Below, in pieces: positions 145-54,711 of a DNA stretch of 64,000 bases (its first letter is position 1; each line of letters begins with the position of its first letter). Below the pieces are notes generated by a model. The model searched no databases and had not been told where the DNA came from. It saw only the letters and a program-made list of their open reading frames with translations. Made by a program: the position numbers and the translations under genes. Origin of the DNA: Halichondria panicea (lineage: Eukaryota; Porifera; Demospongiae; Suberitida; Halichondriidae); NCBI RefSeq assembly GCF_963675165.1, contig NC_087377.1, forward strand, positions 12,324,632-12,388,631. Reading direction: 5' to 3'.

Positions 145-2072
145 GTATTCCGTTGGTGTTGGGTGAACTGACTCGTGACTATACTGGGACCCCCTGTACT
201 GGAGATGTGGTCTCGCTCACTTGTACAGTGCCTGGAATGTTGTTGGGATGGGATATCCCTGATTCAAATAATCACATAGTACTTGACAGTGGAAGTGAAC
301 TTCCATTCGTAAGAAATCCATACACAGTAACATCACTTGTGATCAATTCCAATATCACCTCCAATTTGATTTTCCCTGCGATGGAGGGGATCACTATTGG
401 TTGTTTTCCTGTAGGACAGTTGCAGCTGAGGGAAGAACTCACCATACGGACAGTAGGTGAGGTTATATTGAGGTTATTATTACAATATCATGCTCTTTAC
501 AGATACTCCTTTACCACCAAATGGATTCAGTAAATCAATTCTGAGTAGCTCAGCCGATGTAGTTAGTGTAGCTGTTGGTTGGAACCCTCCTACTGAGACT
601 GGTGGTAGAGATGACCTCGACTACACAGTAACTATCTCACCTCCGGCCCAGCTCTCTACTACCGTCCTCACATCCACCTCTGTCACTGTGACTGCTCAAT
701 ACAATGTGGACTACACTATCAGTGTTGTGGCTACCAATTGTGCTGGGAACAGTACAACAGCTGGGTACAACTTTAGGATCGGTGAGTCAACATCGTCTAA
801 ATTTAAACAGTACACTACACTGACTCCCTCTAGTGCAGGCAACTGTCCTGTGTTGACCGACCCCATGAATGGAGCGTTTGGACCAACCACCAGTAGTTTA
901 CCAGGATCCATAGTAACTATCCAGTGTGACGCTGGGTATTTGTCTGCTGTTACGATGGTGACATGTGAAAGTACACTGATGTGGAGTCCAGACCCTGACG
1001 CTATTGAGTGTACATCACTAACCACACCTACTCCCACAATTTGTGAGTTTAAGCTCTTGGCTATATATTTACCCCATGTGTGCATGTGCAGCGAGCAGCA
1101 GGGGTGGAGTGATTGGTGTGTGTGTGTCGGTTTGTGTGTGTGTGTGGACACAAAATGAGCTGTTTGAGCGAACTAGACACTTTCATAGGCTGCTTTAACT
1201 GCTCTACTTAAATATAGTTGAAACTTGTAGGCGATCTTCGAAGGTGAAAAACTAATACGAAATATAAGTGCCTCGAAAATTTCGCGCTATACGGTATATG
1301 ATTGTGAATCTATAAAGCAACGATTAGATTGATTAGTTTTTCACCTTTGAAGATCGCCTACAAGTTTCAACTATATTTATTAAGTTATACGCTATACGGT
1401 ATTACCCTAATGATAAAGATGTTACGGTAAAAAGTTATTGTATCCATTTTGCTGCTGTGCGATGAAGCTCAACGCACAGGGTGAATGCTCTACTGAGCAT
1501 CTTGTTATGGAAATAATACTTCCAACAGTATGTTAATTACACAGCTCCTCCAATGAACTGCACGGCTCCACTATCCCCACCAAGGAATGGCACCATCAGT
1601 GATCATTCAGTACCAGCTATTCCTGGTACACAAGTGACCTTTCAGTGTGACAACGGACTGTTCCCTGAGGGGATAATGACTGCCACCTGTCTAGCTACAG
1701 GAGAGTGGGACAAGAATCCAGGGGAAATTGTCTGCAGAGGCAAGTTTATTCATATATAGTCATGCTTCTATATACCTTGAACCACCTACAGCTGTTTCTT
1801 ACAATAGCAGATTATCTGATGGGAGTCGATTTGATGCAGCTGTCTCCATCAGTGTGGTTGTCACGGCAGTTCTATTCACCGTCATTGGATTGTTGATGGG
1901 ACTCTTGATAATGTATTTGTTCATGCATAAGAAGAATGTGTACTCTCTAGCAGCTAAAGAGCAAGCTAACGTAGGACCCACTGTATCAGCTGGTCCTGTT
2001 TATGAGGAGGTGTCACCCAAAGAGGAGATTGAACTGAACACTAATCAGGCGTATGGACCAGTAGGACTGTGA
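145..2072 (+). CDS. R1: Ig-FN3-CCP-CCP transmembrane receptor (5' end cut by window)
   Basis: The signal-peptide exon would lie before base 1. Exons inferred from splice borders, all phase 1 in and out: 145-456 Ig-like (LTC, then Trp in LGWD, then GCF as the second Cys strand); 503-781 FN3 (WNPP, DYTV, NCAGNS); 839-1042 CCP; 1545-1739 CCP; 1792-2072 membrane and tail, stop TGA. The visible 424 codons join without a stop. The helix is VVVTAVLFTVIGLLMGLLI, followed by basic MHKK and a tail with VYSLA, GPVYEEV and NQAYGPVGL. The intron after the second CCP starts with GC (GCAAGT). The intron at 1043-1544 holds a TG run and an inverted repeat. By family logic this is a cell-surface recognition protein with a tyrosine-based tail; no ligand can be read from sequence. 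R8 is its closest relative in the Ig exon. Confidence 0.82.
1211..1377. repeat. Inverted repeat in R1 intron
   Basis: Arms at about 1211-1256 and 1332-1377 are near-perfect reverse complements (they contain GAAACTTGTAGGCGATCTTC). The surrounding 1.1-1.5 kb recurs in degraded form at about 36.96-37.29 kb just upstream of R6, so it is a dispersed element, not an R1-specific structure. Confidence 0.75.
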
Positions 2073-2637
2073 AACTTGTGGTACTTTCACCAACAGCTAA
2101 TGTACATGTATGTAAACAATTAACACAATAATATAGCATGTACTGCATCTATTCATTATCAACAACTTAGAACAATGTAAACAGAGTTGTTGGCATAAGT
2201 CATGTAGCTACGTATATAGTCAAAGACTCACATTGGATCGTGTTGTTCTATTCTCCCTCTGAGGATCATTCTCCCAAGCAGATGACATATAGTGAAGTGA
2301 GACAGTCCACTTCGATCAGCAGACTGCACCAGGACATTGTCACTGCTCTGAGGGTGGAGTACAGTAATAAGTGGAGTATGAGGATCCTACTAAAATTATT
2401 GAAATAGCTTAAATGTAGGAAACAAAGACTGAGCAACATTGAACACTCAAAGAAGTTAGTCACAGTACAATTACACAAATACAACAAATGTTATGTGGAA
2501 AATCTACTTCGAAAGTTTCTTACAGTGTCAGCTTTTGAGGAAAATTAGGTGATCTAGCTGTCCAACCCACGCTATCGATAGTACAACATACATCACTGAA
2601 GTAACTTAATTCATAGACTTAGAGAGCATATGGTCAC

Positions 2638-2744
2638 CTCCAGAGGATGTCTGACAAGTGCTAGTGTATTTGACGTTATCACGCAATGGCATCAATGCAC
2701 TGAACTTATAGTGATTCGTACACGCATGTCAGACCTCCTCTGGA
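2638..2744. mobile_element. Short inverted-repeat element
   Basis: Ends read CTCCAGAGGATGTCTGAC and the approximate reverse complement GTCAGACCTCCTCTGGAG. A related but truncated sequence lies at about 48855-48966 in another copy of the duplicated block. The ends resemble those of the 56841-56982 element. Confidence 0.6.
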
Positions 2745-3236
2745 GTCATGCTGAATGATACAATGAGTATCCTTTTTTTTATCACCCATCTCACCAGTTT
2801 AAGCAGTGTCCCCAGGAGGTTGATGTGTTGAGGGTAGTGTCTGTGTTGTAGTGTCTCAGCACAGAGGGGGAGAAGGGAGGACACTCGGTCACCACACCCA
2901 CTTACACCACTCAGCTCTCCAGCAGGAGAATGAAACTGAAGATTAGATTTGGTTAAAACTGCTATTACGTATAACTCAATCTGCAATTCCTCTATTACAT
3001 CGCACAACACATTCATAAGCTCACTTGAGGAATCTCTTGTGTACACTGGCCCACATTTATCTACCACAACAATCTACAAAAACACGTATCTTATCCAAAC
3101 ACCTTTGTACACATGAGCTAGCATACCTTTATCCCATACCCCACTATACCATAAAGCTCTACACATCGTCATGGAAACACTACAACAGTACACTCAACAG
3201 TCGTCTCCCGTACGGTTTCAGACAATCCTTGTTCAC

Positions 3237-3238
<2 letters not shown>

Positions 3239-3267
<29 letters not shown>

Positions 3268-3268
3268 A
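3239..3268. repeat. (TG)n microsatellite, short allele
   Basis: About 15 TG units directly after TGTTCACCTC. The same repeat at the homologous position in other copies of the HEAT-like block is much longer (43814-43933, 49478-49583) or similarly short (56711-56731). Confidence 0.9.
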
Positions 3269-3479
3269 TAAGGATCTCAACTAACAATGTGTGCTGCAGA
3301 AATATCATGGATTTGGCTAGCTCGTCCATATTTGTATTCCAAGCACGGAAACTCACCACTTTGTGGATGTGCTGCTCTACCAGCTGCACTCCCCTGGTCT
3401 GTGTGATCACACTCCAGGTCTCCTGACAGTAGAGCCTCACACCATCAGCCATGTAGTACCTGAAGGGGGAGGGAGAGAT

Positions 3480-4560
3480 AGTGAAATACAGTGGAACAAT
3501 AAACAAAAAACCTAGAGACAAGGGACACCGTAATAATAAGGACAGTGCTTCCGTCCTCGAAACTTCCTACTCACACTATATAACCTCTGAACAAAAGGAA
3601 ACCTCTCTCTCTATCATATCAAGTGCCGTAAATATCAATAACAATAGACAGTACGTAACATTTTAAAATGGTATATGCATCAGTCAACCAAAAAACACAT
3701 TCTGTACTAGGGTGGGTAGATTTGGTAAAGACTTCAGAATGAATAAGCAATAATAACACTCTGATCCAAACAGCCGGTAAAGACCCACTATACACTAAGC
3801 ATGAAGTGAGACAATAATTAAGTGTGTGTGTGGATTATAGTATTAACCATACCCTCGCGAAAATATGCCAACCCTTTTCTGCAAGAAGTTTAGGCTTATT
3901 AGGGGACTGGGCGTTTAATCACAAACAGCGAGTTTTCATTCGGCCACCCGCGGCCTCAAATCGAGGTTTACACTTTGTTCTATATGACAATTAATTCTTT
4001 ATTAATTCATTGTATTTTCATTTCAATACAATTGACAACAACAATGTTATAAACTAATGCATACATGAGTATGATTAAAGCATGATAAGGGAATGAACAT
4101 GAAGAAGTGGACTCTGACTCTATTCGTTGCTTGTCAGATGTAGCAGCGAAATTTCCCAAAGGTAGGTCATACTTCTACAGAGCAGCTATCAGGTACTTTG
4201 TTTCAGAAAACCAAGGCAAGGTAACCTGCAAAATTGGCCTGGGTGATGACTTTCTTTTCAGATTTGTGTTAATTGTTCCTGATCTCTTTTCTGCATATAG
4301 GACTAGTTGTTCCTTGCATATACATGTACATCTTCAAGGGCAAACAGATCCACACATAAATTATGTCTTTTTGGTCCAGCAAATGACGAGTCAAAATACA
4401 CTTGTGCAAAAACTTTGAAGTAAAAGAGGGGATGGGCGTTTATTCAAGATGTGTGTTAGAATGAATAGCTGTGTTAATTGTTCCCTTAACTTTCTCTGCA
4501 TATAGGACTAGTTGTTCCCTGCATATACATCTTCAAAGGCAAACAGATCCACACATAATT
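3480..4560. other. Non-coding stretch with duplicated intron sequence
   Basis: The part at 3690-3790 (TGTACTAGGGTGGGTAGATT and following) is repeated at about 5525, 42400, 50845 and 57645, inside the duplicated HEAT-like blocks. Between 4270 and 4570 there is a local direct duplication (ATAGGACTAGTTGTTCC at about 4300 and 4503). No supportable gene was seen. Confidence 0.55.
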
Positions 4561-5020
4561 ATGTCTTTTTGGTCCAGAAATACAGAGCAACATTGAACAC
4601 ACCCAAATGCATGTAGTCACAGCACAATTACACAAATACGATTGATGTTATGTGGAAAATCTACTCTGAGCAGTGTCTCCAGGAGGTTGATGTGTTGAGG
4701 GTAGTGTCTGTGTTGTAGTGTCTCAGCACAGAGGGGAGGAGGGAGGACACTTAGCCTGGTTCTGGGAGATGTAGAAGTCCACCTGCACACACGCACATGC
4801 ACCATGCAACATCACAGCAAGATAGATCTGCTAAAAAATGTGTGCTGCAAAAATATCATGGATTTGGCTAGCTTATCCACATTAATTTTGTATTCCACGC
4901 ACGGAAACTCACGCATTTTGTGGATGTGCTGCTCTACCAGCTGCACTCTCCTTGTCTGTGTGACCACCCTCCAGGTCTTGAGAGTACAGCCTCATACCCT
5001 CAGCCACATAGTACCTGAGA
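4560..5020 (-). pseudogene. HEAT-repeat-like gene fragments, copy 2
   Basis: A short, rearranged copy of the same minus-strand exons: about 4910-5015 (YYVAEGMRLYSQ then a frameshift), 4745-4790 (VDFYISQ-like) and 4650-4735 (CAETLQHRHYPQHINLLETL). The pieces sit next to each other without the spacing of the other copies, so this is a deletion derivative. Confidence 0.5.
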
Positions 5021-5629
5021 GGGAGGAAGAAATACATAGTGAAATACAGTGGAACAATAAACAAAGAATCAGAAAAAATAAGTAAAACTTATATATATAA
5101 AGGTAAAAATTTCCCACGCAAAATATAATTCCGAGCGAAGCAAGGCTCTAATCAGGTTCATTTTAGTGGTGGTAGTGGACAACAACGGCAAACACATTCA
5201 TTAGAAGTAGTGGCCTAAATTGGCGGTTTGACTTCGGTTGCGTTAGTGATTGTACTATAAGGACCTTTTAGCTCAGGTCTACAGCTCAGAAGGCATTTTT
5301 CAAGCTTTCTTGTCATTATAAGCTACATAATGGTTGATGATTCGTGACATTTAGATCATTATCATACACAACCCTATTGTGACACACCTCAACATTAGCA
5401 CTGCAGTGTATCCGTAGTTACAATCTGCAAGGACAACCTCTCTACCATGTATAAAGTGGTGAAAAACCTACAGAATAAACATAATAGAGTTGTAAATGGT
5501 AACCATCATTCAACCAATATGCACATTCTGTACTAGAGTGGGTAGATTTGGTAGAGACTTCAGAATGGAATTACACTGAGCCCAAACTGATGGTAAATTA
5601 AGACCCACTCTACAAGTGAGGCAACAGTG

Positions 5630-7159: not shown

Positions 7160-7767
7160 TGATGTGTATAGGCCTATAGGGACAAAACAAAAACAGCTGT
7201 TGACTGTCATGTGCTCGAAAGCATTGTCAAGTACCGTACTATACGTGTACATATAAGCTATTAAAATAGACAATGAGGGACTGTATACATAGAATTCCTA
7301 TTATTAATTTTCGATGTTGATGCATTATAGTAACAATTGGTGTGTATAATAATCAACCCAGAGTGCCCACTGCAGTGTACACAATGTCATGAGCAATAGT
7401 GCACTGGCTGCTTCATAGCTACAAGTTATAGGTACACAGTGAGAGTTGGGCCTAACAAACAATAGTAGGTACAGGGTGTTTTCCTATATATAATTATATA
7501 TATTCCTATATAGGAATATATATAATACCTCGAACTTTAGGCCTATATTATAACGAATAAAGGACTTGAGAAACACAGTGAGGGTACAATAATTATTATA
7601 ATCAGTGATTGAAATGAAATGTGTGATGAGCTATGTGTTAACAGTAATCCTGCCTATATCAATACTAGCCGATGCTATAGACAATGTACTTCTACAAATG
7701 TTCCTTAATTGATGAGCAGTTATAAACGATAAATCCATACTACATACCTATTATAGTGCTTGGCGCA
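7160..7767. other. Non-coding AT-rich stretch
   Basis: Contains a short palindromic run of TATATA and CCTATATAGG units near 7480-7530. No gene, RNA or clear element was seen. Confidence 0.4.
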
Positions 7768-7980
7768 TTATTTAGAAGGGCGTGGAGGTGCCGGGGATTC
7801 ATTTTTAGGGGCTGGTTTAGTGGGGCGGGCTGGAACCATCTCTGTATGAGGAAAGAGAGATATGACAAATGTATATAGCTCCACGAAATACGTACATGCA
7901 TGCATGTGCACAATTATTGAAGCATTGATTATGGCAGAACCACGGTGACGCGGCCTCGGGGGTGGGGGAACTTGATGCAT
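7768..7980 (-). CDS. Proline-rich C-terminal exons of an unidentified minus-strand gene
   Basis: Two short minus-strand exons can be joined: 7980-7941 (reads VPPPPRPRHR, phase 0 in and phase 1 out, weak donor GTTCTG) and 7841-7768 (reads VPARPTKPAP then PAPPRPSK and stop TAA). The intron ends CTCATACAG. The peptide is rich in PxxP, typical of SH3-binding cytoplasmic tails. No upstream transmembrane or extracellular exon could be identified, so this may be a gene fragment. The splice model rests on frame continuity only. Confidence 0.35.
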   Translation of the reverse strand: MHQVPPPPRPRHRGSAIINASIIVHMHACTYFVELYTFVISLFPHTEMVPARPTKPAPKNESPAPPRPSK

Positions 7981-10651: not shown

Positions 10652-11667
10652 ATGTACTTCATTGTTTTACAGGTTGTGATGGCGTTATTTGTCGCTACAG
10701 TTACAGGTCAAGTGGTTGACATCGCTTCAGATTTAGACGTAGCCGGCCGTAGCTTTTCCTGCACTGGGGAAGTTGTCACATACACTTGTAGCGCTCAAGG
10801 AACCACCCTGTTTGTGCAGTTTCCACCATTAATAAATCAGCAAGCATTCATTAGCAGTGATCCTGTTCCTGATGTTCAAGTATTCCCTACTGCTCCGAAT
10901 GCTATTCTGACCCTGACAAGTGGAATGCCCAATTTTACTGCAAACCTGCAAATCAGAGTATCAAGTGATCTGCAGCAGATGAATTTTTCTTGTTCTACGG
11001 ACATTTCTGGCCCTCAGAACGATTTTGTACTACCACTAATTCATGAAGGTAAGTTGTCATGCCGTATATATAGCGGGTAACTTTCATTGGTGCAAATTTT
11101 CGTATGAGTGAAATATTTCGTATAGGCTAAATATTCGTACAGCTCAGAATAGTGACATAGAACCTACGAAAATGTCCACCATACAAAAATAACCCGCTAT
11201 AATTATATGATTATCCTTTCATATACAGCACAAATCGAACCACCTTCCACTGTGACATTCTCTGGAGACACGACAGTATCATGGAACCCACCTTTAAACC
11301 CCCAGTTTGACATTGATTATTATATTGTGAGAATTTACGTGGATGAAGTGTTGCACACGACTAGGAGCTCTCGTGACAATGGTCTGGACGTTACGTTGCC
11401 ATCTGGAGAAATCACTGCTGATGTCCGTACTGTTAGCACTTGTGGCAGCATTAGCGCTGCGCGACAGTCAGTGGGATCAGTCTCAGGAGGATGTGCAAAT
11501 GGATCAGTCTCCATTGCAGGTTTGTTTGCTTCTGATTTGTCTGTATATGCCCAGATCACAAAATTGTTAGCGCTGAATCAAAGCACTCAATCTTAAAAAT
11601 CTATTCTCTCTCCGTAGCTGGCTTTTTGGTTCCCATTGTTCTCATCATCATCGCTGTTATCGTATAG
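10652..11667 (+). CDS. R2: short Ig-FN3 protein with C-terminal hydrophobic segment, no tail
   Basis: Exons 10652-11048 (signal peptide plus Ig-like), 11229-11519 (FN3) and 11618-11667 (hydrophobic end, stop TAG) give 245 residues. The signal peptide is MYFIVLQVVMALFVATVTG, so here it shares an exon with the Ig domain, unlike R3-R8. The Ig shows VTYTC and MNFSC; the FN3 shows VSWNPP and DYYIV. The last exon reads AGFLVPIVLIIIAVIV and stops. Downstream of the TAG the frame would continue with YWLLTNW and four basic residues, so the stop may have replaced a normal stop-transfer and tail. As it stands, the C-terminus fits a GPI-anchor signal (small residues CANGS before the hydrophobic run). It has no CCP exon and is the most divergent plus-strand family member. 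Confidence 0.7.
11065..11203. mobile_element. MITE with TATAGCGGGT ends in R2 intron 1
   Basis: The intron begins TATAGCGGGTAAC and ends with the reverse complement AACCCGCTATA. The same ends flank a split copy at about 32480-32578 and 34134-34206. Confidence 0.7.
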
Positions 11668-13178: not shown

Positions 13179-15054
13179 ATGCAGCTACAAACAGTTATTA
13201 TTTGCAGCACCCAGCTGTTTGTACTGGCTGCAGGTGAGTGTTACATGTGTGCATGTGGCTAGCTAGCTATATAAAACTTGATATAACTATACATTAACAT
13301 TTTTGCAGCTACTCTGACATCCATTCCCACTGTGGCCTGTCCTGGTGACACTGTTACCTTCACCTGCACTCTGCCTGGTAGTCTCATACGATGGAAAGTC
13401 ACTCCTCCAACGGTTCAAGGATCTACGTTTAGATTGACTTTAATAGATCTATTCACCGGCAATGAAAATGTCGCTGTGACTGAGGGTAATCCAGCATTCC
13501 GTGGTGTTCTCACTGACTCCAGTGGAGGAATGCTCACTGCCACTCTCACCTCACTGTCTGAGGCCTCCATTGTAGAAGGTACTATGGTGTTGTGTGAGGG
13601 AGCAAGCTCACAAGAGGGTCCTCTCACTATCACTGTGGCTGGTGAGTGACTGATGGAGTGCATGCATGCATGTCAATACACCCATGCACAGATTCACCCT
13701 CCCCTCCACTGAATCCAAGGTTGTCCTCCTCAGCCCAAAACCAACTCAGCTCCTCTAATATCACTCTGGAGTGGGACCTTCCCTCCTCTACTGGTGGTGT
13801 GTCTGTCAGCTATGTCCTCATCATATCCCCAAAACCTCTCTCCAAGTCAGCAGTCACTGTGGAGACTACCTTCACACAGATAACTGTCTCCTACAACACT
13901 CCCTACAATGTGACAATCAGAGCTGTCAACTGTGCTGGAATGAGTGATGATGATGTGATGATGATGATTCTTCCTATTGGTTGGTTTCTATTATAGCTGA
14001 TCTCTTAGTGTATAATATTGTTTGTTGCAGTTACCTGCCCCTCCAACCCAACACCTGCAAACAGAGTGACCATCAATGGTGCTCCTCCACCTCTCTCACT
14101 AGTAGGATCAACACTAAGCTTCACTTGCAATGGAGAGACAGTACCAGCAACCTGTGAGAGTGATGGACGATGGTCACCTGACCCCACCACTTACATCTGT
14201 CCCTCGGGTAAAATTAATGGTGAATCACTGTCATAGTTGTTACTATATAGCCCCTCCTCTCAGATGTCACCTGTGGCTTTCCTGTCGCACCTTCCAGAGG
14301 CAGTGTGGACGTTAAGGGCCGGACATCACCCTTTTCGATAGACTCAGTGGTAAACTTATATTGTGACAAGGGACTATTCCCAGCTGGTGATATGTCCAGT
14401 ACGTGTGAAAATGTGCGTGGAGTGGGAACTTGGAAGCCGGACACGAACATCACATGCAGAGTCATGCCTGGTGAGAATGCCATTGGCTAAATGTTTTGTG
14501 TGTATTATTACATCTAATTTACGTTTCACCGCATACAGTTAACTGCTCTCTACCCAAAAAGCCATCCAACGGAACTGTAGTGAGCTATGAGAGATTGAAT
14601 GAGACAGTGTCGGAGGGAACAGTGCTGACTTACCAGTGTGACAATGGACTCTCACTGACTGGACCCAACACCATCACTTGCACTAATGCTGGTGTCTGGA
14701 GTACTGAGCCTGAGGCAATCGTGTGTGTACTTGAATGTGAGTAGCGCTTTTGTTAACGGTTGATTTCCTATCAATTTGTTTACCTTCTCCATAGATTATA
14801 TATCCGCCACCTTATCCACTGGTGCTGCTATCGTTATAAGTGTGATCATCACTTTCATTGTGACTCTAGCCGCGGGATTCCTCACTGGACTCTTAGTGAT
14901 GTACCTTTGCTCCCGTAAGAAGACAGCTGAAGGACAAGCTAACGTAGGACCCACTGTACCAGCTGGTCCTGTTTATGAGGAGGTGTCACCCAAAATGGAA
15001 ATTAAACTGAACAGTAACCAAGCATATGAACAGTCAACCAGTGTATACGTATAG
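13179..15054 (+). CDS. R3: Ig-FN3-CCPx3 transmembrane receptor, intact, variant tail end
   Basis: Seven exons, all joined in phase 1: 13179-13233 signal peptide (MQLQTVIICSTQLFVLAAG), 13309-13641 Ig-like, 13692-13979 FN3, 14031-14207 CCP, 14264-14470 CCP, 14539-14736 CCP, 14795-15054 membrane and tail. They give 505 residues. Introns are 50-75 nt. The FN3 exon ends in a GAT-repeat expansion (SDDDVMMMI) in place of the family's QESSIVDLS, so its donor (GTTGGT) is the least certain border. The helix spans about IVISVIITFIVTLAAGFLTG. The tail keeps GPVYEEV, but the last part reads NSNQAYEQSTSVYV instead of NTNQAYGPLGL, so the second YxxL-type motif is lost and replaced. The start was chosen from the hydrophobic leader, matched by R5. 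Confidence 0.85.
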
Positions 15055-15660: not shown

Positions 15661-15674
15661 TTAAATCAATGCAG

Positions 15675-28615: not shown

Positions 28616-28639
28616 ACATTGTATACCGGTATACAATGT
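28616..28639. repeat. Perfect 24-nt palindrome
   Basis: ACATTGTATACC followed directly by its reverse complement. No loop and no surrounding element ends were seen. Confidence 0.8.
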
Positions 28640-29116: not shown

Positions 29117-29176
29117 TTAGTCTCGAACACCCCTCAACCTAAAAGCTTTTAGGTTGAGGCGGGTATTCGAGACTAA
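29117..29176. repeat. 60-nt near-perfect hairpin
   Basis: TTAGTCTCGAACACCCCTCA with the rest of its arm (ending AACCTAAAAG) meets its reverse complement with almost no loop. A similarly loop-less hairpin occurs at 51896-51942. Confidence 0.8.
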
Positions 29177-37406: not shown

Positions 37407-40125
37407 ATGACACTAGTAGAGATAATAAAGCTCATTAGACTTCTCCTGATTTGCTTTCTGGCTGGCTTCAGCACTGGTAAGACTGACTATTCAATTATAG
37501 ATTTTTCCTTACATTAATTGCTGCATGTTTGGTAAAGCACAATATTCAGTGAGTGTGGAGAGACCATGTCCAATGGAAACAGTCACTTTCACCTGCACTG
37601 CTCCTGGAAATCTCTTGAGATGGGAGCCATCAGATGTTTCTCGCATCACTATCCGTCCTACAACCTCTGGTCTCAATGTACCACTAATGCCTCAACCAGG
37701 TTACACTGTGACACTGATTGCATTCAATGACACTACATTAACATCTACTTTGTCAAGAACAGCAGAGAATGGGATCACTGTGTCCTGTGTGGGGGTAATT
37801 GTGCTTACTTTAACAACTATAGGATCTTCAACGATCCGATTGGTTGGTGAGTTGCAGTTCGTGTCTCGTCTATTGTCTGTATACAATCAGTTACATAGGT
37901 CCACCAGGACCCCCGTCCACCATCAGACACTCCATTCTGAGCAGCTCAGCCAATGAAGTCAGTGTATCTGTACAGTGGGACCCTCCTACTGAGACTGGTG
38001 GCAGAGATGACCTCACCTACACAGTGACCATCTCACCTCCGGCCCAGCTCTCTGCTACTGTCGTCACATCCACCTCTGTCACTGTGACTGCTCAATACAA
38101 TGTGGACTACACTATCAGTGTTGTGGCTACCAACTGTGCTGGGAACACTACGACTGCTGAGTACAACTTTACGATTGGTGAGTCGACATCGTCTTTAAAC
38201 AGCACACTATATTATTATACTGACTCCCTCTGGTGCAGGTGGCTGTCCTGTGTTGACCAACCCCATGAATGGAGTGTTTGGATCAGTCTCCAGCAGATTA
38301 TCAGGATCCACAGTTACCATCCAGTGTGATGTTGGGTATGTATCTGCTGTTACAATGGTGGCATGTGAAGTTACACTGATGTGGAGTTCAGATCCTGAGT
38401 GTACATCATTACCCACAACTCGTGAGTTAAGCTCGCGGCTGTATAATTATGGATAATTAATACAATGTTTATTCGATGCTAATTTTTTATTAGCCCCTCC
38501 AATAAACTGCAAGGCTCTACTATCCTCACCACGGAATGGCACCATCAGTAATTATTCAGTACCAGCTATTCCCGGTACACGTGTGACCTTCCAGTGTGAC
38601 GATGGACTGTTCCCTGAGGGCATAATGACTGCCACCTGTCTAGCTACAGGAGAGTGGGATAGGATCCCGGGGGAGATCGTCTGCAGAAATGAGTCGAGTA
38701 AGTGGCTTCATTATTCATGAACATCCTCCATTTTGTGTATACCCAGTTTCGTGTGTCCTGCCTGCCCATCCACTCAATGGAGCTTTACTCAACACCACGT
38801 CTCAGAATACTAGCCGATTCGAGGGCTCAGTTACTACCTTCCAATGTGATCCTGGGTTCTCACTGGTGGGTGAAGCGACTGTCACTTGTAACAACTCTGG
38901 TCTCTGGGATCCTGACCCAGCTCTATTGGAGTGTTGTACGTACGCATATGAGTAGTCATAAACCAGCTGGTACAACCGTAAATGCGCGAAATTTTCGAGG
39001 CATGCACTTACCGGAAACACTCCCAGGCCATGCATGCTTTCAATATTTGCACGCTATAGTAGATAATTTAAAATTTGGCGCTATATATACTGTATAGCTC
39101 ATGCAAGGCTCCAATTATATATACAGTAGACTCTCGCTATTCTGAATCTCTGAAGTACGACCACCTCGATATATACCTGCATGCCATTTGGTTTGGTACG
39201 GATTGCACAAAACTCACCCTGAAATGCGGCCATGTTAATGTATGCCCCAAACTAGGTTTTCAGTGTACGTTTACTATGGCCGGATATGGTGTGGTTTGGC
39301 TGGATTACACTATATATAGAGAGCAGAATGATTTCATTATCCTTGAGACAGAACCGCAAAATTAGTCAATAGATTCGAGGTAAGGTAGTTTTTAAGCCGC
39401 AGTTATATTCTGAAATACAGTCACCTCGTTATTCCGGCCAAGCTGCACTGTCCCAAGGGTGACCGGATTAACGAGAGTCTACTGTACTAATTTACGTTTT
39501 TTGATATTTATGGCACTTAGTATTTAATTAAGAGGTTAATCTTTTGTTCGAAGGTTATATAGTATGAGTAGGAAACTTCAGAGATGGAAGCTGCTCGTGG
39601 TATCGAGACAAAAAAAACACTGACTTCTGAGCAAAATCGGCGAAAATAAAATCTTGAAAATTAACATGTTCATACAAAATTATTATACTTGACATTGTAT
39701 ACCTCATACAACACAGTATACTCTGATTGTGATAATTGCCTATAATTATACAGGCTTCAGTTAGTGCGCTCTATTTGTTGTCCTATAATAATTATTGCCA
39801 ATCCTTCACAGCTTCGACTGCTACCACCCTATCAACTGGTGTAACTGTTGCCATCGGTGTTACTACTACTTTTGTGTTGTCTACTCTATTTCTCGCTGGA
39901 CTCCTAGTGATGTACTTGTTCATGCGTAAGAAGGCAGTGTACTTCACAAGAAAAACAGCATTATCTGTTGTAGAACCCACTAAACCAGTTGGTCCTGTTT
40001 ATGAGGAGGTGTTACCCAAAAAGGATATTGAACTGAACACTAACCAGGCGTACGGACCAGTAGGACCACCCAAAGAGGATATTGAACTGCATACTAACCA
40101 GGCGTATGGACCATTAGGACGGTGA
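37407..40125 (+). CDS. R6: Ig-FN3-CCPx3 transmembrane receptor, intact, duplicated tail motif
   Basis: Seven exons, all phase 1: 37407-37476 signal peptide (LIRLLLICFLAGFSTG), 37538-37846 Ig-like (VTFTC, LLRW, ITVSC), 37899-38177 FN3, 38239-38421 CCP (3 codons shorter near DPECTS than R7), 38494-38697 CCP, 38747-38935 CCP, 39812-40125 membrane and tail. They give 515 residues with no interruption. The helix spans about VAIGVTTTFVLSTLFLAGLL, followed by MRKKAVYF. The tail is GPVYEEV, then two tandem copies of a 17-residue unit (DIELNTNQAYGPVGPPKE then DIELHTNQAYGPLGR). The last intron (876 nt) contains a TA-flanked MITE. The Ig exon matches R7, while the FN3 exon is near-identical to R1, R7 and R8. 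Best-supported gene in the window. Confidence 0.9.
39124..39484. mobile_element. Pogo/mariner-like MITE in R6 last intron
   Basis: Ends CAGTAGACTCTCG and its reverse complement, with TA on both sides. It has no transposase. The TA target and CAGT ends fit the Tc1/mariner/pogo group. Confidence 0.8.
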
Positions 40126-41794: not shown

Positions 41795-43800
41795 GTCTAT
41801 AGTCTGTACAGTGTCTCACCATATAAGCCTTGGTGACGCTGGTGAGAGCAGCAGCTGCCCCTTGTCTAACTGAGAGTATGCTGTCCTCAAGGTTAGCAAA
41901 ATGGGAACAGTTCATCCATGCAGCCACAATCTGAGGAGAGTGGGGGAACACCAACAGCCAGCCAGTCAGTACTAGCTCTATAATGAAGTACAGTACAATT
42001 GATCGGAGCACAAAATCAAACAATTTTATGCCCTCAAATAAAAGTTCCTGTTACGTTTGCGTTGCACGTTTTTAAGGAGCCAGAAAAACGCAAACTGAAC
42101 GGTAGCGTATTATTCATAAATGCACCGTAATTACGTATAATTATTGTTCTATGGAGAAATCGCTGAGGTAGCAATATTATTCTATAAGTATACGTAGCTA
42201 GCTAGTAACTTTACTAGTGTGTGTCCAGGGGCACATGGGCACATGAAAAGCAACGGGGAGACTGCAGAATTAACTCAAACTATAATTATAACCTCCAAAC
42301 AAAAGGAAAATCTCTCTATCATATCCAATAAACATAATAATTGTAGATAGTACAGAGGGTTGTAAATGGTAAGCATCAGTCAACCAATAAACACAATCTG
42401 TACTAGGGTGGGTAGATTTGGTAAAGCCTTAAGAATAATAAGCAACAATCACTCTGCATGATCCAAACAGACGGTAAAGACCCACTATACTAAAAACATT
42501 AAGTGAGACAACAATTAAGGATTGAACTGCATGCATGTGTGTGCGTGTGTGGGGGGAGGGGGGGGTAGTATTAAATCAGTCAATAAATGCATTAAAATGA
42601 AACGAAGGAAGATTCATGTATATATGCCTGTGGTTGCTTACGTAGATGTTGTTAGAATGAATAGCTTGAATATCATGGCTTGTATACAGTCCCACTTATT
42701 CATTACCACTAGATCTACCACATGCCATATCTAATGTACTGACTGCACACTCACCAGCCTCAGGAGTTCCTTTGCCAGTTGCTCCTCGTGGTGGTCTCCC
42801 AGCTCCCTCCAGGTTGGTCGTTCAGAGCAACTCTTCATCATCCCACTGGCATAAACATAATTATCATTTCGGTCAAGCAGCAGCTGAGACAAAACATACG
42901 GTAAAGATCCACTACAATAAACATCAAGTGAGACAAGTGTACTAGAGTAAATCAGCAAAGATCGGCCACCACGTATAATCGATCACTGCCAGTGGCGGAT
43001 CTAGGATTATTGTCAGGGGGGTTCTAGTGGCAAGGCAGCATTTTATCTAAAAAAAGGTTGTCGCTTCTATGGAACAGTGAGCATGCGCATCAAAACATTA
43101 GATTTTGCCTAAAACAAAAGGTCAGCACTCCTTAGAGACAGTCAGCATGTGCTGGAGGTTTAGAGCCTTTCAGTGAATACAACTAACAAACAGAGCTTCG
43201 CAGGACTTAGGAGAACTGAAAGTAAGTGATGAGTGAATATGAAAGCTTGTAATCAAGGAAAAACTTGCGAAGTAGTTGCTTAAGCCTCCTACTCACTTAT
43301 GTGTGGATAAACCACTGTAAGGTCAGGGGGGTGCTTAAGCATCCTCGCTATACCTGCTAGATCTGCCCCTGGTGACTGCTACCAACGTTGTTAAGGATAA
43401 CTGCAGACTCTTTTGCCTATCAAAATGTAGCTCTTTCTTTATGCTGGGAGTTTGATCACCCATAACTAACTGTCGTCATGTTATAAGCGATACTAGAGTG
43501 ACTACCAATATTACCGAATTTCAGCTACTCTATAATGAAGTACCAGAGCTCAATCAAATACAATACATACAGACAAAGGGAATGAGTGTCGTAGTGTTTC
43601 TTACCAGGAATTAAGCATTTTAGGAAGTTACCGTCTAAAAGAGGTGAGTGAGACATATGAACTGATTTAAACATTGGAAATTGGTAGACTAACACTCACC
43701 GTCTCTTAACGGCAGGCTATCGTCATGGAAACACTCCAACAGTACTCTCACCAGTCGTCCCACATATAATTATAGTATCAGACAATCCTTGGTTCACCTA
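41795..43800 (-). pseudogene. HEAT-repeat-like gene fragments, copy 4
   Basis: 41800-41935 reads FANLEDSILSVRQGAAAALT and SVTKAY with a disrupted 5' part. 42740-42845 reads MKSCSERPTWRELGDH, EEQLAKELLRL, with no stop, and is the best copy of the exon that looks like the second half of a death-domain fold. 43690-43800 has the remains of the exon next to the TG microsatellite. Order and spacing do not match a working gene. Confidence 0.5.
42990..43371. mobile_element. Non-autonomous element with CAGTGGCGGATCTAG ends
   Basis: Ends CAGTGGCGGATCTAG and CTAGATCTGCCCCTG are imperfect inverted repeats, related to those at 32579, 52000 and 62787. Flanks ATCACTGC and GTGACTGC are similar. No coding content. 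Confidence 0.6.
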
Positions 43801-44299: not shown

Positions 44300-45534
44300 A
44301 TGTGTTCTATTATCTGTCTATATGAAAACAGGAAGTGTAAAAAAAGCTCTGAATATAAAGGAAGTAAACAATTGCAAAGGAGGTTGTCTAGTCAGCATCA
44401 CATTAACCTTCTAACTGTCAATAAACAAGAGATAAAGCTCATTAGAGTTCTTCTGATTTCCTTTCTGGCTGGCTTCAGCATTGGTAAGACTGACCATTCA
44501 ATTATTATAGATTTCCTTACATTACTGCATGTTTTGTAAAGCACAATATTCAGTGAGTGTGGAGAGACCATGTCCAATGGAAACAGTCACTTTCACCTGC
44601 ACCGCTGCTGGAGATTCTTTGAGATGGGTACCATCAGATGTTTCTCTCATCACTATTCGCTCTACCTCTGGTCTCAATGTACCCAATGTTGTATCAGGTT
44701 ACACTGTGACACTGGTTGCATTCAACGATACTACATTAACATCTACTCTGTCAAGAACAGCTGAGAATGGGATCACTGTGTCCTGTGTGGGGTTTGTGCC
44801 TACTTTAAATACTATAGGATCTTCAACGATCCGATTGGTTGGTGAGTTGCATGCAGTTAGTGTCTCATCTATTGTCTGTATACACTAAGTTACATGCATA
44901 GATTCACCAGGACCACCTTCCACCATCAGATACTCCATTCTGAGTAGCTCAGCAGATGAAGACAGTGTATCTGTGCAGTGGGACCCTCCTACTGAGACTG
45001 GTGGTAGAGATGACCTCACCTACACAGTGACCGTCTCACCTCCGGCCCAGCTCTCTGCTACTGTCCTCACATCCGCCTCTGTCACTGTGACTGCTCAATA
45101 CAATGTGGACTACACTGTCAGTGTTGTGGCTATCAATTGTGCTGGGAACAGTACGACTACTGAGTACAACTTTAGGATTGGTGAGTATTATTATTTTGAC
45201 ACAATTGTCAACTCAGCTAGATCCTTCTCAGGTAACTGTCCTGTGTTGACCGACCCCACGAATGGAGCCTTTGGACCATGGCCAGTGTCTAGCAGATTAT
45301 CAGGATCCACAGTAACCATCCAGTGTGACGCTGGGTATGTATCTGCTGTTACGACGGTAACATGTGAGGATACACTGATGTGGAGTCCTGACCCTGAGGC
45401 TATTGAGTGTACATCACTAACCACACCTACTCCCACAACTCGTGAGTTATAAGCTCTTGGTTATATATAGTTATGCCTCGGTGTGTGCATGCAAAAGCGA
45501 GCTAGGTATAAGGTAGTGTGTTTGTATGTCTGCA

Positions 45535-45572
<38 letters not shown>

Positions 45573-45598
45573 TGGGTGTGTTTGTATGTCTGCATGCA

Positions 45599-45673
<75 letters not shown>

Positions 45674-46470
45674 TGTATACAGCTGCTCAATGCTAAATGA
45701 AGTGAAAGTAAGAGTTTCTATAGGCATGTTTCTTGGATTCTTGCAATTAGTGGATTTACAAATGAATGCTTGGTTCTCGAGTTATGCCTAATTTTGCTTA
45801 CTTGAAGGCTGTTGCAGACTCATTAGAATTCTATGTAGCAAAGCCTATGGATATAACTTACTTAGTTTGCACTAGAACGCTAGCTATATATAGTGTACGT
45901 AGCTGCAAATGGATAATTAATGCAATCTCTATACACATGCAGCCCCTCCAATGAACTACACAGCTCCACTACTCTCACCACGAAATGGCACCATCAGTGA
46001 TCATTCAATTCCCGGTACACAAGTGACCTTCCAGTGTGATGATGAACTGTTCCCTGAGGGGATAATGACTGCTACCTGTCTAGCTACAGGAAAGTGGGAC
46101 AAAAATCCAGAGGAGATCGTCTGCAGAGGCAATTTTAAGTGTATTCAGTAATGTTTTTTCACACTTCTCTCTTGAACCACCTACAGCTGCTCCTTGTAAT
46201 TGTGCCAGCCTATCTGATGGGAGTCGATTTGATGAAGCTGTCTCCATCAGTGTGGTTGTCACGGCAGTTCTATTCACAATCATTGGATTGTTGATGGGAC
46301 TCTTGATCATGTTTTTGCTCATACGTAAGAAGGCAGTGTACTCCCCAGCAGCTAAAGAGCAAGCTAACGTAGGACCCACTGTACCAGCTTGTCCTGTTTA
46401 TGAAGAAGTGTCACGCAAAGAGGAGATGGAACTGAACACTAACCAAGCGTATGGACCATTAGGACTGTAA
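44300..46470 (+). CDS. R7: Ig-FN3-CCP-CCP transmembrane receptor, start codon displaced
   Basis: Exons: signal peptide ending 44483 (LIRVLLISFLAGFSIG), 44542-44841 Ig-like, 44902-45180 FN3, 45232-45441 CCP, 45943-46128 CCP, 46187-46470 membrane and tail. The ATG that opens the homologous R6 exon is missing because about 18 nt are deleted. The frame stays open upstream to ATG 44300 (giving 480 residues and a 45-residue polar stretch before the leader) or ATG 44219. The second CCP lost 3 codons and ends at a GC donor with weak consensus (GCAATT). The helix includes VVTAVLFTIIGLLMGLLIMF; the tail has VYSPA, CPVYEEVSRKEEMEL and NQAYGPLGL. A family A repeat with long TG runs fills the intron at 45442-45942. 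Function depends on the displaced start. Confidence 0.7.
45470..45800 (-). repeat. Dispersed repeat family A with (TG)n, in R7 intron
   Basis: Reverse-oriented copy: ATGCCTCGGTGTGTGCATGC, a TG run (45538-45672) with internal TCTGCATGC interruptions, then CAGCTGCTCAATG and ATTCTCGAG-type flank. Apparent open frames are repeat artefacts. Confidence 0.85.
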
Positions 46471-47524: not shown

Positions 47525-49498
47525 ATATAGATATTATTCAAAGACTCACATTGCATTGTGTTGTTTTACATAGTGAGGTGAGACAGTCCACCCCAGAAGA
47601 CTGCACCAGCCTATTGTCACTGCACTGTGAGGGGGGGGGGGAGTACATGTACATGTAATAAGTGTTCGCAGATATCGCAGTTGACACTAGTCACACTTTG
47701 TTCAATAACAGTAGTAGACAACAGAAACAGCATAACACTCATAACCTAATCATAACCTAGCTTGCACAAAACTCAAGAACTTATATACAGAACACATATA
47801 ACTCTAGAATGTTCTACCTAGTTCTCTAATGTCAAAGTTCAGCAGCAGCTACAGTTCTAGAACAAACATTAACTAGAATAATCTAGATGTACAGTCTAAG
47901 TGAAGAGTTCACCTAATCACTACACTTGTGGTTTACCACTTGATCAATTACTTCCTCTAACAATAAGTGGAGTATGCAGATCTCATTGAAATAGGAAACA
48001 AGGACAGAGAAACATTGAAAACGTGCACTAAAAAAAGTTAAATACATGTAGCCACAGTACAATTTACGAAAATGTTATGTGGAATCTACTTTGAAAGTTT
48101 CTTACAGTGTCAGCTTTTGAGGAAATTTAGGTGAAATAGCTGGCTAAGAAATTTCAACCCAACCTATTGATAGTACCAAGGGCGTATGAAGAGAAGAGCT
48201 AGGGCATGCAACTCACAATGTAAACTGTGTATGTGTCAAAAAACTGATGAGTCAGCAGGATACGCTATATTTAGCCAACCGCCCACTAGAGGAGGTTGGT
48301 CACGATTAAGTAAGATTCACGTGAGCTTATGTTTTCTATGTAAAAACTCCAAACCCATCCAAGCTGCTGAGTCGGCACTTTTTATCTACTTTCTTCCATT
48401 AGCTCGTTTATCTCTCTTGTATAACATCTCCTGTTAGTTTTTGAGTCGTAGTAGTTTAACACTATACCTGCTACATCAAGACAGGAGTCAAAGAAACCAA
48501 GAATTTGAGGCAACAACTCAAAGTTTGTGGTTTATGGCTTGTTGCTTCTAGTACAACTATGCTACTCACTTTCTAGTGTCACTGAGCATTGTTAGCATTA
48601 TTTACTACTAGTATAGAGAGCTACAATCATCTGCAGTATGTTAGCTTAGCTAGCTTAGCTAGAATAGCTACTTTCTCTGTAAGTTTCCGTATATCTTCAC
48701 CGTGCACGCACAAAAACGGTGCACGTGCAATGCATTCTTTACTATTTTTATATATAAGACCCCGCCCATTTGTTTTCTGATAGATAGTATAGTTGCATGC
48801 CCTCTTCTCTTCATACGCCCTTGATAGTACAACATACATCACTAAAGCAACTTTTTAGACATGCGTGCACAAATAATTACAAGTGCTAGAGTATTTTTTG
48901 GATCACACAATGACATCAATGCACTGAACTTATAGTGATTCGTGCACGCATGTCGGACCTTCTCTGGGGTCATACTGAATGACACAATAAGTATCCTTTA
49001 TTCACCCATCTCACCAGTTTGAGCAGTGTCTCCAGGAGGTTGATGTGTTGAGGGTAGTGTCTGTGTTGTAGTGTCTCAGGGGAGGAGGGAGGACACTCGG
49101 TCACCACACCCACTCACACCACTCAGCTCTCCAAGCAGGAGAATGGAACTGGAGGGTGTACAAGATTAGATTTGGTTAAAACTGCTATTACGTATAATTA
49201 TTATACTCTGCAGTGCCTCTATTTACATCACAACACACAGCACATTATTCATAAGCTCACTTGAGGATTCTCTTGTACACTGGCCCACATTTATCTACTA
49301 CAACATCTACAAAAACACATACCCTTATCACGAACACCTTGTACATGTACATAATTATAAGCTAGCATACCTTTATCCCATACCCCACTACACCGTAAAG
49401 CTCCACACATCGTCATGGAAACACTACAACAGTACCACCCACCAGTCATCCCACGTAGGGTTCCAGACAATCCTTCACCTGTGTGTGTGTGTGCGTGC

Positions 49499-49586
<88 letters not shown>

Positions 49587-50640
49587 TGGTGGGTAGGGTT
49601 GAATTGTTGAGCTGTAATGTGTAAACATAATAAATATTATGTGTGCTACTGAACACATGATATCGGACTTTAGGTGATATTGATTACACAGGCACTATCA
49701 CATGACCACCCACACACCTTAGTGCCCAGCTCTGCAGTACAGATGCAGACTACATGCCTCTCTCACTGCATGGTTGGCTGCCTGGCTCTGGGAGATGGAT
49801 GTAGAAGTTCACCTGCACACACATGCACCAACATCACTGAGACTGCTTCAATAATATTAATTTTATGAAAATTGTGAGCTAAGGCCACACAAACTTAATG
49901 ACTTGTTTCTCAGGCCCTCGCGCTTCGATTTTTTGACCTCTCTTGAATCCTTTTATATACTCTGCTACTTTAATATTATGGTAATAATCGCCAGATTTAA
50001 AATTAAAATTGCCACATGATGGCACCTCGTGCCTTTCCTGACTTGTGCTTGACAGCTGAGTGTGTATTTTTTGTATGTGTATTTTTCCTAAAATGGTATT
50101 TTGTATATACTTTTCCTGACATGTATGGAGGAGTGGCCAAGGTGTGGCCAGAAGTTTTTGCCCCACACACACAAAAAAAGCCTCCTCCTCCCCTCCTCGA
50201 TTGTTAATAGAATATGCCTGAGCAAGTGATCAAGTTTGTGTGGCCTAAGTATAATTATATTGCTAACCTGCTGCTAATTAAATGATTGTAATGTCAGAAT
50301 CGATCTTAAAATACCGCTATTTGACCCGCCAAAGAGTGTCGTTCTATTTATCAGTTCGTCGGATGAATTGCACAGACACATCAACATCACAACAAGATAG
50401 TTATTATAGTGATTACATAACGATAGAGATCTTAACTAATTTAAGTGCTGCAGAAATATCATGTAGCTCGTCCATATTTGTGTTCTAATCACCCACTCAC
50501 CACTTTGTGGATGTGCTGCTCGACCAGCTGCACTCCCCTGGTCTGTGTGACTACCCTCCAGGTCTCCTGAGAGTAGAGCCTCACACCCTCAGCCACATAG
50601 TACCTGAGGGGGAGGGAGAGATAGTGAAATACAGTGTAAC
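47525..50640 (-). pseudogene. HEAT-repeat-like gene fragments, copy 5
   Basis: 50510-50605 reads YYVAEGVRLYSQETWRVVTQ then TRGVQLVEQHIHKVV with a GTGAG donor, the best copy of this exon. About 49820-49720 holds a disrupted QAANHAV/ICTAELGT exon. 49030-49080 has a truncated HYPQHINLLETL exon. About 47600 holds the decayed VDCLTSL region. A TG microsatellite (49478-49583) and the transposon at 48177-48822 sit in what were introns. Confidence 0.5.
48177..48822. mobile_element. hAT-like non-autonomous element with readable empty site
   Basis: Ends CAAGGGCGTATGAAGAGAAG and the reverse complement are flanked by GATAGTAC at 48169-48176 and 48823-48830. The paralogous segment at about 2574 reads GATAGTACAACATACATCAC without insertion, confirming the duplicated target. 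An 8-bp duplication fits the hAT superfamily. The interior is non-coding. Confidence 0.85.
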
Positions 50641-51215
50641 AATGAACAAAGGACCCTCGGAAAAACCGTGACACACCTCAACATTATTGAATGTGATAAA
50701 TACGCGTAGCGAGGTTTCACTGCAGTGCATCCATAGTTACAGCAAGGACAATCTCGCTACCATTTATCAAGTGGTGAAAACCTACTGAACAATAAAGTAC
50801 ATAGGAGTGCAAATGATAAGCATCATTCAACCAATAAACACATTCTGTACTAGGGTGGGTAGATTTGGTAAAGATGTCAGAATGGATAAGCAATAAACAC
50901 TCCGATTCAAAACAGAGGGTATAAGATCCACTCTATAACTAGAGCACCGAAGTGCAAACCCTTTGGACATGGTGCCTACAACACAAAGATGGTCAAAAAA
51001 ATTAACACTATAACGCCTAATATAAGTTAGAAGTTAGAATATAATAAAAAATATAAATAAATATTATTATGCCAATCAAAACAGGCACCAACACGCGGTT
51101 AATACATGTACTCTTACTAGTGACTGCTACTGAACACATGCACACACACTCAACAGATTAGGATTAAAAACTAAAACCGGCTAAAAATAATGTTGACCTC
51201 AAAGACGAAGTAGAC

Positions 51216-51942: not shown

Positions 51943-51999
51943 TTAGTGTTTCACTATAGGCTATATGGTGAGAACTGGTCTGGCAGTCAAGTCATTGAT

Positions 52000-52591: not shown

Positions 52592-52622
52592 TTGATAAAG
52601 TACCTTTGTCCTGCCTCCATGC

Positions 52623-54711
52623 ATGATGACACATGCTGAGACTAGATCTATTTGGGTTTTAGTGGTTGGTAAGTCACTGTTTATAACTTGCATGCCAGTT
52701 GCTGTACAGTAACTAGTCTATCGTTTTGCTAGAAAGTTTCATGTTAGTGTCATGCATGCTTGCTCTCTTCACTATACAGGTGTACCATTGGTGTTTGGTA
52801 GTCTGACTCGTGACTACACTGAGACGCCCTGTGTTGGGGATGTGATATCCGTCACGTGCACAGTGCCTGGAGTTTCCTTGGATTGGGACGTGCCTGATCC
52901 AACTAGGAATATACGAATTATTGCGTCAACCGAACCATTCCAACGAGATCAGTACTCAGTCACATTAGTGATATTCAACTCCACTAGTTCAATAATCACC
53001 TCCAGTTTGAGTTTCCCTGCAGCTGATGCGATCACTATTGGATGTTTTCCTATACTACAACCGGAGTTGAGGGAAGAACTCATCATACTGACAGCTAGTG
53101 AGTCTATTAGCCTGGGCTTTTTACAATGCCATAAACCTCTTACTTTACAGCTACTCCTTCACCACCGACTGGATTCAGTGACTTAATTCTGAGCAGCTCA
53201 GCCATTGAAGTCAGTGTATCTGTGCAGTGGGACCCTCCTACTGAGACTGGTGGTAGAGATGACCTCACCTACACAGTGACCATCTCACCTCTGGCCCAGC
53301 TCTCTGTTACTGTCCTCACATCCACCTCTGTCACTGTGACTGCCCAATACAATGTGGACTACACTGTCAGTATTGTCGCTACCAACTGTGCTGGGAACAG
53401 TACAACAGCTGAATACAACTTTACGATTGGTGAGTCAATATGGTCTTTATAAATAGTACACTATATTATTATACTGACCCCCTCTTATGCAGGTGGCTGT
53501 CCTGTGTTGACTGACCCCATGAATGGAGTGTTTGGACCAGCCTCCAGCAGATTACCAGGATCCACAGTAACCATCCAATGTGATGCTGGATATGTATCTG
53601 CTGTTACAATGGTGACATGTGCGGATGCACTGATTTGGAGTGCCGACCCTGAGGCTATTGAGTGTATATCAATACCCACACTCCCTCCCACAACTCGTGA
53701 GTTGAGTTCTTGATTTTACAAAAACTTATTTGTTCACCTCACATGCAGCTCCAATGAACTGCACAGCTCCACTATCCTCACCACAGAATGGTACTATCAG
53801 TGATCATTCAGTACCAGCTATTCCCGGTACACAAGTGACCTTCCAGTGTGACGATGGACTGTTCCCTGAGAGGATAATGACTGCCACCTGTCTAGCTACA
53901 GGAGAATGGGACAAGATCCCGGGGAAGATCGTCTGCAGAAATGAGTCTAGTAAGCTATACCTGCATGGTTTATGGTTCGGTGTACTCAGATCAAAAGTTC
54001 GAATTACTAAAATTCAAATGAGCGTATAATTATAATGTTCAATTTTTACATCAATCATATTCCTTGTACCCAGTTTCCTGTGTTCTGCCTGCTCCTCCAC
54101 TTAATGGAGCATTACTCACTAACTGTCAGAACACTAACCTAGTCGAGGGCTCAGTCATTACCTTCCAATGTGATCCTGGGTTTTCACTGGTGGGTGAAGC
54201 AACTGTCACTTGTAACAACTCTGGTCTTTGGTATCCTGACCCGGCTCTATTGGATTGTGTATCTAGAAGTTGTACGTACACACAAGTACTATAATTATAT
54301 AATTATAAACTGATACAAGAACACACTTTTAGTAAAAATGAATAGCTATAATCATAGTCTTACTCTTGTGATGCACGCCCTCCCATTGTTTATTGGAACT
54401 CTCTATACATATATTTTTCGCTCTAAAAATGTTGCCTCCTCCCATGCACAGTTCAATCACCCATCCTATTTACCGGAGAGGTTCTTTCTATCAGTGTGGT
54501 TGTCACTGCAGTTGCTTTCACAGTCATTGGATTCCTCACTGGACTCCTAGTGATGCACCTTTGCTCTCGTAAGAAGGCAGTGTACTCTCTAGCAACTGAA
54601 GAACAAGCTAACGTAGGACCCACTGCACCAGTTGGTCCTGTTTATGAGGAGGTGTCACCACCCAAAGAGGAGATTGAACTGAACACTAACCAGGCGTATG
54701 GACCAGTATAG
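52623..54711 (+). CDS. R8: Ig-FN3-CCPx3 transmembrane receptor, intact and compact
   Basis: Exons, all phase 1: 52623-52668 (MMTHAETRSIWVLVV), 52780-53097 Ig-like, 53151-53429 FN3, 53493-53696 CCP, 53749-53949 CCP, 54074-54271 CCP, 54452-54711 membrane and tail. They give 501 residues. The leader's hydrophobic core continues across the first splice (IWVLVV plus GVPLVFG), which supports this start; an upstream in-frame TAA excludes a longer one. The Ig shares TRDYT..TPC and REEL with R1. The helix is about SVVVTAVAFTVIGFLTGLLV, followed by HLCSRKKAVY. The tail has APVGPVYEEVSPPKEE and ends NQAYGPV; a TA insertion gives TAG two codons before the usual end. A 5' transposon (52000-52591) ends 31 bp upstream. 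Confidence 0.88.

Follow-up and report, generated by a model that had tools for sequence, protein, structure and literature searches.

The 64,000-nucleotide stretch of DNA analysed here (the window) spans C1:12324632-12388631 in the 131-Mb, 39-contig genome of the sponge Halichondria panicea. Chromosome C1 of this species bears a multi-megabase cluster with hundreds of related receptor-gene copies, broken copies included, and we read the window as a slice of an immune-type receptor complex whose most likely role is allorecognition (i.e., telling self from non-self tissue), a reading with about an even chance of being right. Each gene would encode a type I membrane receptor with a leader, a V-type immunoglobulin (Ig) tip, a stalk of FN3 and CCP (sushi) modules, one transmembrane (TM) helix, and a tyrosine-bearing tail.

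Direct repeats and an all-against-all comparison of reading frames reveal the repeated modules in the window, and between positions 145 and 54711 tandem plus-strand units share a single architecture: leader, Ig, FN3, two to three CCPs, TM helix, and tail. A preliminary description of this DNA had proposed this module order and tandem arrangement, and the splice phases, the direct repeats, and two RefSeq models (P0042 and P0075) agree with it. Acceptors and donors were found flanking each module and, by a generic splice-site score, the modelled module exons begin and end in phase 1, so that modules can be gained or lost without breaking the frame. The preliminary description had also counted eight genes; the window does contain at least eight tails with the YEEV motif (no tail exon was found 3' of gene I), but among the seven modelled units (A, C, E, F, G, H, and I) all matched exons are open in only five (A, C, G, H, and I). 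E has a frameshifted CCP2 and F a frameshifted TM exon, D is a fragment, and B is a divergent, tail-less unit. A separate exon-hit grouping of the window gave six units complete by exon content, five of them open.

The predicted fold of the Ig exon is a clear V-type Ig beta-sandwich and, in a comparison by VIA-align, the modelled receptor tip resembles a T-cell receptor variable domain. The curated Pfam cut-off was passed by Sushi in 17 of 19 relatives and by fn3 in 5 of 19, and Pfam Ig matches were weak throughout (PF13895, Ig_2, in 9 of 28 Ig exons, best E value 0.016). The corresponding PDB profile search (best E value 0.021) returned chains of antibodies, CD3, and IL-12 beta for the most part. 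In the structure model of P0012, seven strands occupy the FN3 position; the model's mean predicted local distance difference test score over its full length was 61.5, with low confidence outside the domains. Weak Pfam matches to PKD, HRM, SusE, SIT, Invasin_D3 (6/28 Ig exons), and others were not used.

Three types of tail were distinguished. The common short tail, GPVYEEVSPKEEIELNTNQAYGPV/L, is near-invariant in 13 diverged members, with the core GPVYEEV...NQAYGPV/L. Its ratio of nonsynonymous to synonymous differences (pN/pS) was 0.22 (15 exons) and 0.32 (12 exons, after one frame-disturbed TM exon of 13 had been dropped), compared with 0.87 and 0.56, respectively, in the adjoining juxtamembrane stretch; the short tail is thus under purifying constraint. 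We take YEEV to be like a Src-type SH2 site, NQAY like an NxxY site, and YGPL like a YxxPhi site. The long tail, found in ten RefSeq proteins, contains VxYAxL and VTYATV in all ten and LTYDEV in seven, a hemITAM-like (half immunoreceptor tyrosine-based activation motif) EEGYNRI or SEGYSRV in at least five, and proline-rich SH3-type motifs in nine. Motifs of the type (I/V/L/S)xYxx(L/V/I), characteristic of the immunoreceptor tyrosine-based inhibitory motif (ITIM), occur at least twice in each of the ten, the ITIM-like tyrosines being LTYDEV, VIYAAL, and VTYATV. Among seven long-tail proteins searched for the Pfam Death domain, three matched above the cut-off, three below it, and P0034, with a model cut short within the domain, gave no match. 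The Death-domain PDB profile search matched death-domain proteins in 11 of 11 cases at E values up to 1, with FADD first, and residues 638-728 of P0012 form six predicted helices following a disordered stretch. The third tail type was found in P0009, P0017, and P0066. All three tails occur on both ectodomain subfamilies (long: P0010/P0012 and P0067/P0068; third: P0009/P0017 and P0066). Furthermore, P0054 (H. panicea, 600 aa) joins an ectodomain of I-set Ig and FN3 unlike that of the receptor family to the same TM helix and short tail, with the NQAYGPL motif three times, which indicates that the tail module moves between ectodomains.

The cluster extends far beyond the window. The tail query matched at least 150 places, and all matches listed fall on C1, at 11,249,292-14,927,722. 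Across the genome, a degenerate DNA pattern for PVYEEV occurred at 266 places (175 forward and 91 reverse) versus two for the reversed control, which excludes chance; among the matches listed (100 of 266), all were on C1. The Ig exon gave 133 matches, fragments included, for the type of genes G and H (132 on C1 and 1 on C32) and 106 for the type of genes C and F (104 on C1 and 2 on C6); a few C1 matches lay beyond the main interval, at 9.87-10.42 Mb. For the long-tail type, 79 of 90 matches were on C1, mostly in the same interval, and the other 11 were weak. A 200-kb sample upstream contained exon matches on both strands (32 Ig, 32 FN3, and 29 TM), and 18 of its 48 grouped units were complete by exon content, with no stop in their matched exons; this grouping is rough, splitting genes with extra exons and being blind to frameshifts. 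A stretch of roughly 10 kb (window 21654-31756) recurs at C1:13.67 Mb, 1.3 Mb away, with 99.1-99.3% identity; the pair may be a recent segmental duplication or an uncollapsed haplotype, and the copy number may in part reflect either. Neither the window nor C1:11.25-14.93 Mb contained any of the best 150 matches of a genome search with the Pfam Sushi profile, a result uninformative on the cluster because only the best candidates were scored.

Variation among the copies is confined to parts of the Ig tip (33 sequences, from 38 through 34 after end-motif and identity filters). A test modelled on the pairwise homoplasy index, applied to nine genes from Ig to CCP1 (one of ten was dropped for lack of CCP1), gave a mean incompatibility of 0.436 versus 0.490 in shuffled data (0/500 permutations). 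Neighbouring sites are therefore more compatible than shuffled ones, which indicates recombination or gene conversion between paralogues. Five Ig copies of the G/H type were found on other contigs. The tip of one (P0028) equals that of RefSeq P0023 by eye, P0040 has a 98% match, and the best matches of P0033, P0035, and P0036 in the H. panicea genome reach at most 91%, 92%, and 85% over the domain, respectively. These copies would fit differing repertoires between individuals, and their contigs may be of other individuals or species.

The V-type fold, the tip-confined variation, the conserved tyrosine tail, the three tails on shared ectodomain types, the recombination, and the multi-megabase cluster together make the recognition role proposed in the preliminary description likelier. 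We infer that the variable segments of the tip bind a cell-surface or microbial ligand and that binding would be read out by phosphotyrosine signalling, with YEEV in the short tail serving as an SH2-type site beside an NxxY/YxxPhi site. The long tail with its ITIM-like and hemITAM-like tyrosines, Death domain, and proline-rich SH3-type motifs is carried by a minority of receptors that have the same ectodomain types, and recruitment to the tails would involve kinases, phosphatases, or partners with a Death domain. Opposing signals could then arise from shared tips on different tails, with the cell integrating many receptors as in paired-receptor systems, while duplication, inter-paralogue recombination, and pseudogene formation would keep the tip repertoire changing. 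Tentatively, and at somewhat less than an even chance, the whole may be a sponge histocompatibility complex, in which a haplotype spanning several megabases encodes hundreds of V-type Ig receptors with shared variable ectodomains on activating-type, inhibitory-type, and Death-domain tails, and which evolved independently of the Alr, fuhc, and vertebrate complexes.

Several observations weigh against assigning the receptors to allorecognition. The ratio of nonsynonymous to synonymous substitution rates (dN/dS) over whole exons was 0.25-0.62 (matches with stops or below 80% coverage were dropped), and positive selection on whole exons was therefore rejected, with no sign of it across the genes. 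The high pN in the variable segments is partly circular because the segments were picked by protein variability, and pS is also raised there (0.30 vs 0.135), a pattern equally expected of selection and of segments that are older or relaxed. In the structure model these segments cover strands C and C' besides loops and are thus not strictly complementarity-determining loops, and BC and FG show little variation (0.52 and 0.58 bits) among the C/F-like sequences. Strictly, the short tail does not qualify as an ITIM, since P or Q at -2 misfits the consensus. Many units of the 200-kb sample are incomplete. Three protein searches (62, 57, and 10 hits), which favour close relatives, returned no named protein of other sponges; 12 hits were nameless ones on contigs, and among hits from outside the sponges, the named ones were CCP proteins of turtles and a single JGI protein. 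This lack of hits sits awkwardly with the widespread allorecognition of sponges; such systems can evolve fast, yet a lineage-specific microbe sensor would look alike. One-to-one orthologues in distant taxa, which by the preliminary description would have told against a recognition role if they did housekeeping work, were likewise not seen in these searches, whose need for shared five-residue words limits their sensitivity.

Sequence alone does not separate allorecognition from microbe recognition, the alternative that survives best and one that we consider possible though not probable. The same receptors would then sense microbes or microbial surfaces, in phagocytic or inflammatory pattern recognition, instead of conspecific tissue, and microbes would drive the diversity, as in other expanded sponge receptor families. 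The short tail would also suit an endocytic YxxPhi/NxxY signal, and the long tail contains a Death domain. H. panicea expresses large sets of pattern recognition receptors, 62% of them individual-specific, and Sushi- and Ig-domain genes are among its lipopolysaccharide-regulated genes (PMC8242945), but the available portion of that source does not describe Ig-FN3-CCP receptors, so the lipopolysaccharide link is not established for this family. Against microbe sensing, ITIM-like and hemITAM-like tails on shared ectodomains are typical of balanced self-recognition systems, as in Botryllus (PMC12065747). The size of the cluster, its many incomplete units, the recombination, and the lack of named relatives elsewhere among the protein hits are unlike a housekeeping adhesion family. 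A role in adhesion or cell sorting during tissue building, in which each paralogue would bind homophilically and none would serve immunity, is quite unlikely. Ig/FN3 proteins are nevertheless frequently adhesion molecules, and sponge Ig-superfamily proteins are mostly treated as such in a review (PMC11999971). Least likely of all is an inflated copy number, with much of the complex being duplicated haplotypes that the assembly retained or an expansion in decay that does little: the near-identical 10-kb block and several Ig matches paired with equal scores at different places point that way, but most near-full-length copies are far apart in sequence (protein identity with the query about 75-93%), the tail is kept under purifying constraint, and many copies have RefSeq models of full expected length.

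The allorecognition reading also invites comparison with known systems, among which neither FcoR nor Alr is a family match. In the chordate Botryllus schlosseri, the fester family (FF) and fester co-receptors (FcoR) of the fuhc locus are clustered multigene families with variable Ig and sushi domains and >37 and >53 loci, and the FcoR tails carry ITIM, hemITAM, and core YxxI/L/V motifs (PMC12065747). The sponge receptors share the variable Ig, the sushi modules, the clustering, and, in the long tail, ITIM-like and hemITAM-like motifs, with 266 tail patterns, broken copies included, in H. panicea. FcoR, however, follows the plan V Ig, sushi, two C2 Ig, TM, and ITIM/hemITAM, and FF has three TM segments, whereas the sponge units have FN3, two to three CCPs, a single TM helix, a Death domain in some tails, and no C2 Ig pair; no tunicate protein was among the hits of the protein searches. 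Hydractinia Alr comprises 41 clustered Ig-superfamily genes with V-set domains and tyrosine motifs (PMC11999971, PMC12065747). The likeness to Alr lies in the clustered receptors, V-type Ig, and tyrosine motifs, but the sponge receptors differ in domain plan, having a single Ig followed by FN3 and CCP modules. No cnidarian protein was among the named hits of searches that need shared five-residue words and did not compare Alr directly. Alr proteins are not known to contain CCPs. Vertebrate KIR and LILR receptors of the leukocyte receptor complex form tandem clusters with shared ectodomains on different signalling tails, pseudogenes, and recombination; their Ig domains are of the C2 type, they are not known to contain FN3 or CCP modules, and they activate via a charged TM segment and an adaptor, and they are compared here for their way of working only.

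The window's features are collected in the table. The gene models were built by hand with generic splice-site scoring, and RefSeq supports several of them, not all. Genes A and H have two CCPs and the other units three. Splice and reading-frame modelling in the window found no convincing leader exon for genes A and I; that of gene A may be located outside the window, and gene H has a leader-like stretch without an ATG close by. Gene C is 92% identical to RefSeq protein P0065 over 490 aa. Gene E matches P0075 at 95.7% over 279 residues, the first 23 residues of P0075 equal window 21420-21488, and P0075 ends early within the CCP2 exon, where gene E is frameshifted; P0075 is a truncated RefSeq model of gene E or of a near-identical copy. 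In gene F, comparison of exons by eye showed that a single base shifts the frame of the TM exon, where its copy at C1:13.67 Mb is intact, and its 417 modelled residues are 99.3% identical to P0042, the protein of that copy. Gene G is open across 515 aa, is 84% identical to P0001 over 505 aa, and has H. panicea RefSeq proteins as its top matches; partial domain matches probably explain RefSeq names such as 'complement receptor type 1-like', 'mucin-2-like', and 'titin-like'. Unit B may be either a pseudogene or a receptor that lacks a tail.

Table. Receptor genes, fragments, and related features in the window
Feature	Position	Strand	Parts
Gene A	145-2072	+	Ig 145-456; FN3 503-781; CCP1 839-1042; CCP2 1545-1739 (GC donor); TM+tail 1792-2072
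Long-tail fragment	7756-7842	-	proline-rich C terminus
Unit B	10673-11657	+	divergent Ig and FN3 exons, then hydrophobic stretch ending in stop; no YEEV tail
Gene C	13179-15054	+	leader 13179-13233 (candidate); Ig 13309-13641; FN3 13692-13979; CCP 14031-14219, 14264-14470, 14539-14736; TM+tail 14795-15054 (C terminus divergent)
Fragment D	15665-16443	+	pieces of CCP1, CCP3, TM/tail
Gene E	21420-24922	+	leader 21420-21489; Ig 23015-23353; FN3 23403-23678; CCP1 23821-23994; CCP2 about 24039-24266 (frameshifted); CCP3 24417-24620; TM+tail 24678-24922
Gene F	26763-30796	+	leader 26763-26814; Ig 26876-27196; FN3 27253-27528; CCP 27589-27771, 27825-28040, 28165-28368; TM+tail about 30550-30796 (frameshifted)
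Gene G	37407-40125	+	leader 37407-37476; Ig 37538-37846; FN3 37899-38177; CCP 38239-38421, 38494-38697, 38747-38935; TM+tail 39812-40125 (tail motif duplicated)
Long (Death-domain) tail type fragment	42755-42838	-	
Gene H	44542-46470	+	Ig 44542-44841; FN3 44902-45180; CCP 45232-45441, 45943-46128 (weak GC donor); TM+tail 46187-46470
Gene I	52780-54711	+	Ig 52780-53097; FN3 53151-53429; CCP 53493-53696, 53749-53949, 54074-54271; TM+tail 54452-54711
Long (Death-domain) tail type fragment	58154-58300	-	

The window contains other repeated sequences. Two mutually inverted 38-bp tandem arrays, at 20043-20484 and 20918-21251, have units containing ATTTGCAT / ATGCAAAT; in the whole window each of the two occurs eight times, and the array stretch accounts for every ATTTGCAT copy and for six ATGCAAAT copies. 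We take the octamer in these units to be a POU-type motif, and the arrays may belong to a mobile element. Minus-strand fragments at 57126-57022 and 49759-49715 match the C-terminal part of P0034 (VDFYISQ...AVREAACICTAELGTKV) and are perhaps from a repeat-protein gene copied together with the cluster. A further repeated unit with frames on both strands was observed at 3019-5088, 49170-50668, and 57212-57586, with several copies located between receptor genes.

Sponges reject foreign grafts very precisely, an ability attributed to a genetic system that is polymorphic, and the aggregation factor family is a candidate for sponge self-recognition (PMC5450542). That factor is an extracellular proteoglycan complex (PMC11999971), in contrast to the single-pass receptors described here with their V-type Ig and signalling tails. 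Searches of openly licensed PubMed Central papers, judged mostly by title and opening of the abstract and by text passages for PMC8242945, PMC12909245, and PMC13119343, listed no report of this receptor family or complex. No sponge locus is known to control graft rejection. With the complex mapped to a single interval of one chromosome in a common sponge, the self-recognition question is open to genotyping and grafting. If the reading as an allorecognition complex is true, an early-branching animal lineage would possess variable V-type Ig tips on interchangeable tyrosine and Death-domain tails, that is, the logic of paired immune receptors.

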